Below are positions 5,890 to 54,954 of a DNA stretch of 64,000 bases, piece by piece. Where the stretch lies: the NCBI RefSeq assembly GCF_007567505.1, contig NZ_CP041783.1, positions 2,294,001 to 2,358,000 on the forward strand, written 5' to 3'. The DNA comes from Shewanella donghaensis (lineage in GTDB: Bacteria > Pseudomonadota > Gammaproteobacteria > Enterobacterales > Shewanellaceae). Below the pieces are notes generated by a model, which saw nothing but the letters and a program-made list of their open reading frames with translations, was not told where the DNA came from and did no database searches. The stretch's first letter is position 1. The number at the start of each line of letters is the position of its first letter. The translations under genes and the position numbers were made by a program.

Positions 5890-6906
5890 ATGAGAAGAAC
5901 ACTTTTAAATATTATTACGATGCTAATTTTTTGTAGCATTTACACCCCTTATTCTCTAGCACAAGACATTAGAAGCTTGTACGGGGAGACTATGGGGAAT
6001 AACTATAAAGTGACATGGACAGAGTCGAAAATAACTGCAGAAAGAATGGCAGCGATCCGAGATGAATTAAATCAACGTTTAGAAGATGTAAATAATTCAA
6101 TGTCTAACTGGCGTGATGATTCCGAAATCACTGCGATCAATAATATTTCGAAAAATACTTCAGTAAAAATAAGTAGAGATTTAGAAAGAGTCATTAATGA
6201 AGCTATTTCAATTCATGAGTTAACGCGTGGCAGTCTCGATATTACCGTTGGCCCTTTAGTTGATTTATGGGGCTTTGGACCTAATGGTCTCATTGAGAGT
6301 CTTCCGAGCGATCAAGATATTGCAAATGCAAAAGCTAAAATTGGCGTTCACCATATTGTTATTAATGACCACCATATTTCTAAAAATACCGATGGACTCC
6401 AAATAGACCTATCATCCATTGCCAAAGGCTTTGGCGTTGATGTAATTGCAGAAGTACTAGAGCGTAATAATATTCATAATTTCTTAGTTGATATTGGTGG
6501 TGAATTAAGAATCAAAGGAGTCAATGCCAATAAAGAGTTATGGAAAGTGGGTATTGATAAACCGTTTGCATATTCATCTGGTCAAATAGAAATCATTACA
6601 CCAGGTGACTCAGCTGTTGCAACATCAGGGGATTATAGAAAGTACTTTGAGAAAAATGGCCAACATTACTCACATTTAATAGACCCTCGTTCAGGTAAAC
6701 CAGTCACTCACAATATTGTCTCTGCAACCGTAATTGAAAAAACATCCATGACGGCTGACGCCTTAGCAACTGCATTTATGGTATTACCAAGAGCAGAGTC
6801 AATTGAAATAGCGAATAAGAATAATATTGCCATCATGATTATCGAAGATAACTTTGGTCGATTGAAAACATATTATTCTGACAGTTTTAAGAAGTTCATA
6901 AAATAA
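5890..6906 (+). CDS. apbE: FAD:protein FMN transferase (ApbE family)
   Basis: A 338-residue exported ApbE-family protein. Residues 1-24 form a signal peptide ending SLAQ, without a lipobox. The conserved blocks are present in order: LDITVGPLVDLWGFG, IDLSSIAKGFGVD, VDIGGELRIKG, SHLIDPRSGKPV, and the metal-binding MTADALATAFMVLP. Characterised ApbE enzymes use FAD to attach FMN to a Thr or Ser in D-x-x-[S/T]-G-A-[S/T] motifs of exported domains. Possible targets here are NqrB and NqrC, and the lipoprotein encoded 32 bp downstream, which carries such a motif. Pairing on one transcript suggests the lipoprotein is the dedicated substrate (inference). Confidence 0.9.
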   Translation: MRRTLLNIITMLIFCSIYTPYSLAQDIRSLYGETMGNNYKVTWTESKITAERMAAIRDELNQRLEDVNNSMSNWRDDSEITAINNISKNTSVKISRDLERVINEAISIHELTRGSLDITVGPLVDLWGFGPNGLIESLPSDQDIANAKAKIGVHHIVINDHHISKNTDGLQIDLSSIAKGFGVDVIAEVLERNNIHNFLVDIGGELRIKGVNANKELWKVGIDKPFAYSSGQIEIITPGDSAVATSGDYRKYFEKNGQHYSHLIDPRSGKPVTHNIVSATVIEKTSMTADALATAFMVLPRAESIEIANKNNIAIMIIEDNFGRLKTYYSDSFKKFIK

Positions 6907-6938
6907 TAGTTAATAAAAACTATATCAAAGGGGTAACA

Positions 6939-8129
6939 ATGAAAAATAAATTTAAACTTAGCGTACTTTGTATTGCTGTATTAGGCCTAACAGCCTGTAG
7001 TGATGATGACACTGATACATCAGGTCTTGAAACACAAATCAAGCAACTTGAAGAGCAAAATGCTGAGTTAAATACCACAAACGAGACTCTTTCATCGACT
7101 AATGAATCATTAGTTGCTGATAACGCCAGCTTGGTCACTCAAACAGATAAACTTCAAGAGAAAGCGGTTAGTTACATCTCTACTTTTAGCGCTCAGTGTG
7201 CTGAAGAAGGTGCCATTTTTGATTATATCGATCCCAATGCACCAGCAGAAGAAACGCCACAAGTTGCGACATTCGCTTCAGCTATGGCCTCTGAAGACTG
7301 TATGAGCTGTCATAACTACGAAGGTAGTGATCCAGCAAACGTTCCTCATGGTGACTATGGCGTATGTAGTAACTGTCACGAAAGCCCGCACGATGAAACT
7401 CCACCAGTTGATCCAGGTAATCCACAAGAGCCAACATTCCCACAACCTGAGGGTGATGACTCTAAAGTTGATGGCAAGACAGGTGCTTCTGGTGCTTTCT
7501 ATTACAACGCAGGCTCTTTCTTAAATGCTGACTACTTAGCTCAGCGTTTGAATGGCAGCATCTACAATTATGAGTGGAAAGAAGTTTCTGACGGTAGCGG
7601 TGCTAAAACACTAAAAACAGCATGTGGTCTTCAAAATCGTGAATACATGGCGGATATGTTCCCAGCTGATGGCAAAGAGTACCAACTCAGCGCAATTTCA
7701 AACCAAATGGGCGCTAAACTTGTTTCTACGGTAAATAAGTTTACTGATGATGAAACAGCTGAAGAAGTAGAAACTCCGAATATTGCCATCTTTGGTTACG
7801 GCATGAAACTTGAAGATGACGGTAATTACTATGTTTCTATGAGCATTGGTAAAAACAACACTTGCTACAATGTCATTAATGATGGCGAAGCACGTTTATC
7901 TTACTATGAATACTCTCCAATGCTTTCAGCTAAGTTTGAACGTAACATGGGTGCACGTATTTTAGGTACTGTTGACTTCACTCGTACGGCATTGAAAAAA
8001 TCAGATTGGGTTACTGAAGTTCCTGGTCTGGGTGCAGGGGAAACTTTCACTCCTTCAGATGTTGATTGGACAGCCGTTGGAGCTTGTTCATTAGTGATTA
8101 AAGTTGATGGCATTATCCCATTAGGATAA
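6939..8129 (+). CDS. Dihaem c-type cytochrome lipoprotein, candidate flavocytochrome
   Basis: A 396-residue lipoprotein: signal peptide with lipobox LTAC (Cys20), then an Asp-rich tether and a coiled-coil-like segment at residues 29-76. Two c-type haem sites follow, CMSCH (121-125) and CSNCH (143-147), and then a Pro-rich linker. At 178-184 the sequence DGKTGAS fits the ApbE flavinylation pattern, predicting FMN on Thr181. The C-terminal half (about 200-396), with PNIAIFGYGMKL and MGARILGTVDF, weakly resembles FMN-binding split-barrel (pyridoxamine oxidase-like) proteins by eye. The gene follows apbE by 32 bp with an AAAGGGG ribosome site. Haem and lipid sites are seen; the flavin is inferred. 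Confidence 0.75.
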   Translation: MKNKFKLSVLCIAVLGLTACSDDDTDTSGLETQIKQLEEQNAELNTTNETLSSTNESLVADNASLVTQTDKLQEKAVSYISTFSAQCAEEGAIFDYIDPNAPAEETPQVATFASAMASEDCMSCHNYEGSDPANVPHGDYGVCSNCHESPHDETPPVDPGNPQEPTFPQPEGDDSKVDGKTGASGAFYYNAGSFLNADYLAQRLNGSIYNYEWKEVSDGSGAKTLKTACGLQNREYMADMFPADGKEYQLSAISNQMGAKLVSTVNKFTDDETAEEVETPNIAIFGYGMKLEDDGNYYVSMSIGKNNTCYNVINDGEARLSYYEYSPMLSAKFERNMGARILGTVDFTRTALKKSDWVTEVPGLGAGETFTPSDVDWTAVGACSLVIKVDGIIPLG

Positions 8130-53568: not shown

Positions 53569-54954
53569 ATGAAACGGAAATACTCACTTGCCCTTTGCTT
53601 TTCACTTGTTGCACTAACAGCTTGCTCTGATGACGACGATAAAATTGTTATCGAAGAAACTCCCAACATTGAATATGCCCAAGTACGAGTTATTCACGCA
53701 TCCAGCGATGCTCCAATGGTTAATGTAACCGCTAATGGCGCTGCCTTACTTCAAGATGTAGATTACGCCGTATCCAGTGGATTAATAGAAGTTGAAGCAG
53801 CAACCTACGCGGTCACTGTCGATGCAAAATTAGCCGATGGCACAACCCTGACAGTGTTAGAGGCTGACCTGCCTGCTGGTGCAGACATGGAATACACCGC
53901 CGTTGCACTGGGTAATGTTTCCGACGAAAACTTGATGCTGAAAGTCGTTGCCAACGAAAAAGCAGACATCACTTCAGGCAATGCCAGAGTACAAGTCTTG
54001 CATGCCGCGCCAGATGTTGGCCTAGTCGATGTGTATGTAACAGCGCCAATGGCAGATATCTCAGTAATGGAACCGACATTATCAGCCAATTACATGGATA
54101 ACAGCGGCCAGTTAGAAGTACCAACGGATGATTACCAAATTCGTATCACCCCTAACGGTGACAAAACAGTGGTATTTGATTCAGGTACAGTCAATCTAGC
54201 CACTGGGACTGATTACTTCATCTCTGCGATTCCAAACGAATGGTCAGGCGATTCACCAGTTGCATTACTTGTCGCTTTACCAGATGCACAAGTGCTATTA
54301 AATGATGTCAGTAGCGGTAGCGATATTCGAGTAGTACATGCTGTTGCAGATGCCCCTGCAGTAGATGTGTTTTTAGATGGCAGCATGACAGCAGCCATTG
54401 AAATGTTGTCATTTGGTGAACTAGCAGGTTACCTCAATATCACAGAAGGTATGCACACCGTCACCGTTGCGGCTAACGCCGATAACTCAGTTGAAGTCAT
54501 TAGCGATGCAGAAGTTGATTTAATGCTTGGCAGCAGTTACTCAGTGCTGGCGGTAGGTTCTCTTGCCGGAACTGATTCAGGTATGGATATTTCACCTTGG
54601 GCATATGCAGAACACACACGTCGCATTGCAACTGAAGCAAGACTCAACGTGATTCATGCTTCTTACTCAGCAGGAAATGTGGATGTTTACTTAACCCCAA
54701 CAGCTGACATCAGCGCTTCAGACCCTGCTCTGACTGATGTGCCGTTCAAAGCAGCATCTGGCAGTTTAAGTGTTACGCCAGGCGATTACACTGTAAGCGT
54801 AACTGTAACAGGTACAAAAACTGTCGCTATTGGTCCACTTCCAGTCACACTAGCAGCCAACGGCTTGTACAGTGTTGCAGCGGTTGATGCTAAAGATGAC
54901 AACTCAATGTTCACCGTTATATTAATGGATGACTTTGTGGCAGAGGAAGAATAG
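53569..54954 (+). CDS. DUF4397-repeat lipoprotein
   Basis: A 461-residue exported lipoprotein (lipobox LTAC followed by SDDDD). It contains four DUF4397 repeats, recognised by VRVIHASSDAP, VQVLHAAPDVG, IRVVHAVADAP and LNVIHASYSAG, each followed by VDVY/VDVF strands. The family is beta-rich, widespread in marine bacteria, and of unknown function. A binding or adhesion role at the surface is only a guess. Confidence 0.87.
   Translation: MKRKYSLALCFSLVALTACSDDDDKIVIEETPNIEYAQVRVIHASSDAPMVNVTANGAALLQDVDYAVSSGLIEVEAATYAVTVDAKLADGTTLTVLEADLPAGADMEYTAVALGNVSDENLMLKVVANEKADITSGNARVQVLHAAPDVGLVDVYVTAPMADISVMEPTLSANYMDNSGQLEVPTDDYQIRITPNGDKTVVFDSGTVNLATGTDYFISAIPNEWSGDSPVALLVALPDAQVLLNDVSSGSDIRVVHAVADAPAVDVFLDGSMTAAIEMLSFGELAGYLNITEGMHTVTVAANADNSVEVISDAEVDLMLGSSYSVLAVGSLAGTDSGMDISPWAYAEHTRRIATEARLNVIHASYSAGNVDVYLTPTADISASDPALTDVPFKAASGSLSVTPGDYTVSVTVTGTKTVAIGPLPVTLAANGLYSVAAVDAKDDNSMFTVILMDDFVAEEE

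Follow-up and report, generated by a model that had tools for sequence, protein, structure and literature searches.

An apbE gene and a dihaem lipoprotein gene form a two-gene unit in Shewanella donghaensis: evidence for a probable new family of ApbE substrates

In the chromosome of Shewanella donghaensis, a gene for an exported ApbE is followed closely by a gene for a lipoprotein with two haem c sites and a short flavinylation motif. The locus raises the question of whether this lipoprotein is the substrate of the neighbouring ApbE and, if so, which kind of flavoprotein the two genes would produce. The window analysed here is a stretch of 64,000 nucleotides (chromosome positions 2294001-2358000), and the features of the two genes are given in window coordinates, all on the + strand. 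The apbE gene (5890..6906) encodes an FAD:protein FMN transferase of 338 residues, as indicated by a strong match to the Pfam family PF02424 (E=3.7e-85), by its nearest solved structures, which are FAD:protein FMN transferases (E=6e-82), and by the retention of His262 within YSHLIDP and of the motifs TSGDY and TADALAT. Its N-terminus reads as a predicted signal peptide (residues 1-24, 5890..5961) with cleavage near SLA/QD, and a lipobox scan of this N-terminus found none. The gene for the lipoprotein (6939..8129), an open reading frame of 396 residues with 24 homologues and the candidate substrate of this ApbE, starts after a gap of 32 nt on the same strand. The arrangement is the one given in a preliminary description of this DNA, namely a signal-peptide ApbE gene with a dihaem lipoprotein gene 32 bp further on. 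Scans for promoters and terminators gave scores not above those of shuffled sequences.

The motif DGKTGAS occupies residues 178-184 of the lipoprotein (7470..7490), as previously described, and the form D-x-x-[T/S]-G-A-S is present in 23/24 homologues. Among the open reading frames of the window of at least 90 residues, it is found in three only, the lipoprotein, NqrB and NqrC, and the scan thereby also supports the earlier statement regarding the two NQR subunits. The preliminary description had cautioned that so short a motif can occur by chance. This explanation is rejected on the basis of conservation and of shuffled sequences: only 1,098 of 200,000 shuffles of the lipoprotein contained the motif (0.55%), and the mean column entropy is 0.56 bits for the seven motif columns vs 1.79 for the preceding linker. 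In the 23 homologues, whose identity ranges from 85% down to about 37%, the motif is an invariant stretch that follows a linker of variable sequence; its two variable positions are occupied by GK, GF, GL, SY, AY, AI or AE, and the recognition positions are constant. The motif DAISGAS in one genome (G140) has a T-to-S exchange at the first [S/T] position, which the motif permits. As regards the acceptor, FMN is reported to be transferred to the C-terminal Ser/Thr of the ApbE motif (PMC12052999), and because of this published rule Ser184 (7488..7490), the last Ser/Thr of the motif and invariant in 24/24 homologues, is the predicted FMN acceptor, rather than Thr181, to which the preliminary description had assigned the flavin.

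The remainder of the N-terminal half consists of a membrane anchor, a stalk, and a haem region. The lipobox LTAC (6987..6998) contains the lipidated Cys20, which is invariant in 24/24 homologues, and export, a property of ApbE substrates, is indicated by the signal peptide, this invariant cysteine, and the c-type haem sites. Residues 28-78 (7020..7172) are predicted to form a coiled-coil stalk, based on coiled-coil profile matches and on a single long helix in a full-length AF2 model from 14 sequences, a model otherwise too poor for use (pLDDT 59). The c-type cytochrome character is indicated by two CxxCH sites kept in 24/24 homologues, CMSCH at residues 121-125 (7299..7313; Cys121, Cys124, and His125) and CSNCH at residues 143-147 (7365..7379; Cys143, Cys146, and His147), and the candidate distal axial ligands are His137 (in 20/24 homologues) and His151 (in 17/24), with variable spacing. 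Besides the haem and lipid cysteines, Cys87, Cys229, Cys309, and Cys383 are invariant in 24/24 homologues, and this invariance suggests that the lipoprotein may contain two disulphides. Weak protein matches to residues 5-95 (L017-L019, L021, and L022) are considered unrelated. Those that are intact resemble DUF4397 lipoproteins, as checked against Pfam for L019, and have only a signal sequence and a low-complexity start in common with the lipoprotein, whereas L017 has stop codons within the matched stretch. A lipoprotein resembling the DUF4397 proteins of related genomes is also encoded in the window at 53569-54954, with a similar lipoprotein start (MKRKYSLALCFSLVALTACSDDDD) and no haem sites.

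Homologues of the lipoprotein were collected by profile search, which yielded 24 sequences in 22 of 152 Shewanellaceae genomes from three genera, and sampling of the class, the order, and the phylum found no family member outside Shewanellaceae. The preliminary description had asked whether homologues retain the apbE neighbour and the motif jointly. An intact apbE immediately precedes 21/24 homologues on the same strand, at a gap of -59 to 110 nt, and the motif is kept in 23/24. Homologues that adjoin apbE and lack the motif, which had been named as evidence against the proposal, are represented by one sequence only. This most divergent homologue (G120) keeps apbE and both haem sites and has GDITFAS at the place of the motif, in which Ala and Ser are retained, Asp is missing from its place, and Phe replaces Gly. 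Published substitutions in such motifs suggest a mild effect on flavinylation for Asp-to-Ala and a halving of it for Gly-to-Ala (PMC12052999). In three further homologues (G079, G028, and G691), a single group that shares one site, apbE is not adjacent, but DSYTGAS is kept and other apbE genes are present in these genomes. At loci of this type, about 1.1-1.4 kb without an evident gene precede the lipoprotein (L034:11307-12702, L035:7883-8997, and L070:3248-4360); these gene-poor stretches may be the trace of a lost apbE, and no apbE remnant was detected in them.

The pair occupies several genomic sites. It adjoins nqrF in S. donghaensis (G000) and in G105; in five genomes (G054, G087, G072, G053, and G081), it has an lgt-like gene on one side and argF/hemL-like genes on the other; it lies beside a LysR-type regulator in six (G084, G017, G134, G136, G121, and G690); and further sites are used in other genomes. 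In the six genomes with a LysR-type regulator, the regulator is found 3′ of the pair on the same strand (L031, L032, L048, L049, L050, and L069), which suggests that expression of the pair is regulated by some inducer.

The C-terminal domain (residues 205-396, 7551..8126) has no assigned family and is predicted to adopt an FMN-binding split-barrel-like fold. Searches of Pfam, NCBIfam, PDB sequences, and plasmids gave no convincing match; the FMN_bind profile (PF04205) matched none of the 24 homologues at E up to 10, and DUF2271, DUF3570, NqrB/RnfD, Flavodoxin_4, and FMN_red are absent from the Pfam matches of the homologues. The earlier observation that this half does not look like FMN_bind therefore stands. 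An AF2 model of the domain from 24 sequences reached a pLDDT of 88.5 and a pTM of 0.78, and its best Foldseek matches in the PDB are mostly FMN-binding split barrels or their haem- and F420-binding relatives, including PaiB, Desulfovibrio vulgaris FMN-bp, Pden_1323, MSMEG_6526, MSMEG_6519, NohD, and SMOB, with a probability near 1.0 for many. These matches overlap the model only moderately: E is about 1e-3, TM is 0.2-0.35 by query and does not exceed about 0.5 by target, and the rmsd is about 6.5-11 A for most split-barrel matches. The order of elements, i.e., a strand, a helix starting at NNTCYN, two strands, and a last strand ending in IIPLG, agrees with a split barrel. By contrast, hhalign against PNPOx profiles showed no homology (probability below 1%), and nothing significant was matched in a library of viral structures. 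Thus, of the earlier impression that the domain recalls FMN split barrels, and of the profile and structure searches proposed to pursue it, the structural part holds at moderate overlap, whereas the profile search assigns no family and no sequence homology. On the predicted model, a split-barrel fold is likely but not certain.

Considering these features together, we regard it as reasonably likely that the pair is a flavin-maturation module, whose product would be a dihaem lipoprotein with FMN on Ser184 and a split-barrel-like domain that would pass electrons between periplasmic cytochromes and an acceptor. In this mechanism, ApbE and the lipoprotein would both be exported, and ApbE would use FAD to form a phosphoester bond between FMN and Ser184. 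The lipoprotein would be held by Cys20, with the coiled coil as a spacer off the membrane, followed by the two c-type haems and the C-terminal split-barrel-like domain. The tethered FMN would most likely dock in or beside the barrel, electrons would pass between the two haems and the pool of periplasmic cytochromes, and FMN would be the site of one- to two-electron exchange towards an acceptor or substrate. Covalent FMN on the lipoprotein, docking of this FMN in the barrel, and the direction of electron flow are what we infer. The mechanism has precedent because Flavodoxin_4 and FMN_red, folds for noncovalent FMN that have gained ApbE motifs near their flavin sites, are proven to be flavinylated by ApbE (PMC11334425). 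The more specific proposal of a new flavocytochrome class, i.e., a lipid-anchored dihaem protein with a serine-linked, ApbE-installed FMN sitting in a split barrel, is given an even chance.

A narrower reading, which overlaps with the main one and has somewhat less than an even chance of being correct, is that the lipoprotein is a substrate-specific periplasmic reductase in the manner of FccA, built on a split barrel and with haems feeding a catalytic FMN. The many invariant polar or charged residues of the C-terminal domain (K305, N307, T308, E324, R335, R340, and D346 are invariant in a 14-sequence alignment) are consistent with such an enzyme, as is the LysR-type regulator after the pair in six genomes, which is common for inducible enzymes; however, no conserved substrate-linked neighbour genes were found and no catalytic site was identified in the lipoprotein. 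It is less probable, and on balance unlikely, that Ser184 is flavinylated and its FMN stays on the flexible linker, where it would shuttle electrons between the haems and partner proteins while tethered, and that the C-terminal domain has another ligand (for example, a second flavin, a haem, or a partner). The motif lies in a segment of low confidence before the C-terminal domain in the AF2 model (pLDDT 55-62), haem-binding split barrels (PaiB and HugZ-like) are among the best Foldseek matches, and short exposed tags are good ApbE targets (PMC12052999). However, the C-terminal domain is co-conserved with the motif and with the segment YY...SYLNADYL that comes after it, and the tethers of Flavodoxin_4 and FMN_red bring FMN to the site that the flavin natively occupies (PMC11334425).

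The other apbE genes of the genome provide an internal control for the assignment of the pair. Three apbE genes are present. One is located at a second nqr locus (L002, C1:2017377-2021213), where nqrF has as neighbours an apbE gene that encodes a lipoprotein and a small gene for an NqrM-like, cysteine-rich product; neither of these directly follows nqrF in the window nqr operon, the nqr copy for which the NqrB and NqrC sequences were read. Another (L004:35-1330, C1 near 268000) follows a DUF3570 gene (E=2e-174) bearing DSLTGAS, and DUF3570 is a proven ApbE-substrate family (PMC8238504). Accordingly, the neighbour of each apbE is either a motif-bearing substrate, known or candidate (two genes), or an NQR complex with known substrates (the NQR-type gene). 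Co-inheritance was assessed by comparison of distances. The lipoprotein and the ApbE of the pair correlate with r=0.75, a value reached by 0/5000 permutations, vs 0.38 for the lipoprotein and NQR-type ApbE, and the partial correlation given NQR-type ApbE is 0.70. In an ApbE tree, the ApbEs of the pair cluster (3 label changes vs 18.6 when shuffled), with no single strict clade. The whole pair is present as a tandem duplicate in one genome (G023, L033:5923-11158), and G140 has two separate pairs at two sites, each with its own apbE. To judge from these sequences, the two genes are duplicated together and inherited together. Furthermore, horizontal transfer of the pair is suggested in G690, G084, and G017, because there the lipoprotein is nearest to homologues of another genus, whereas the NQR ApbE is of the Shewanella type. 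That apbE belongs to the adjoining NQR, serving NqrB and NqrC, and that the lipoprotein bears the motif by coincidence and is a cytochrome without modification, is therefore rejected on gene context and co-inheritance as very improbable, since, although the pair adjoins nqrF in two genomes and both window subunits bear the motif, it lies away from nqr in the other genomes, S. donghaensis has a separate NQR-type apbE beside its second nqrF, the motif persists across divergent homologues, and the lipoprotein coevolves more strongly with the ApbE of the pair.

The flavin-maturation module may be compared with known ApbE substrates and flavocytochromes. Split barrels (D. vulgaris FMN-bp, PaiB, and the HugZ type) have the best Foldseek likeness to the C-terminal model and no profile similarity. 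The known proteins named here bind FMN, F420, or haem noncovalently and are not known to have lipoprotein, haem c, or ApbE-motif parts. FccA, the flavocytochrome c fumarate reductase of Shewanella, resembles the lipoprotein in being periplasmic and in having a haem domain N-terminal to a flavin domain. It contains noncovalent FAD in a fumarate-reductase fold, and no FAD domain of this type was matched by Pfam in the lipoprotein. FMN_bind proteins (NqrC, RnfG, and UrdA) have exported covalent FMN, as proposed for the lipoprotein (PMC8238504), in which, by contrast, FMN_bind is undetected and the motif precedes the domain instead of ending it. Haem and ApbE-installed FMN within one chain are known for some RnfG proteins, those of Christensenellales with a multi-haem domain being the precedent (PMC8238504). 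Similar to the lipoprotein, the DUF3570 and DUF2271 substrates are neighbours of orphan apbE genes and have a conserved [S/T]GA[S/T], although they share no Pfam similarity with it and c-type haem is not described for them (PMC8238504). The Flavodoxin_4 (PF12682) and FMN_red (PF03358) proteins likewise combine a domain of the noncovalent-flavin type with a D-x-x-[S/T]-G-A-[S/T] segment beside apbE; however, they are experimentally flavinylated, belong to another fold and family, occur mostly in Firmicutes, and have no haems, and no coiled-coil lipoprotein stalk as in the present protein is reported for them (PMC11334425). In the literature searched, which comprised papers accessible without subscription, neither a split-barrel ApbE substrate nor such a dihaem lipoprotein is described. 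The lipoprotein probably represents a new family of ApbE substrates that combines domains in a new way and has been found, to date, only in Shewanellaceae.

The catalogue of ApbE flavinylation is described as incomplete, and genomes with apbE and no known substrate have been noted (PMC8238504); the present pair would probably extend it by a new family of substrates and a new fold. As proposed, a single small protein anchored by lipid would hold both of the main extracytosolic electron carriers, covalent FMN and c-type haem, and it would do so in bacteria that are studied for extracellular respiration. The pair also bears on the idea that covalent flavoproteins arise from noncovalent folds via a short tag. 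If the proposal is true, Flavodoxin_4 and FMN_red would be joined by another independent example of a fold for noncovalent flavin that gained an ApbE tether; in this example, the tether, the haems, and a dedicated ApbE would move together as a unit of two genes.
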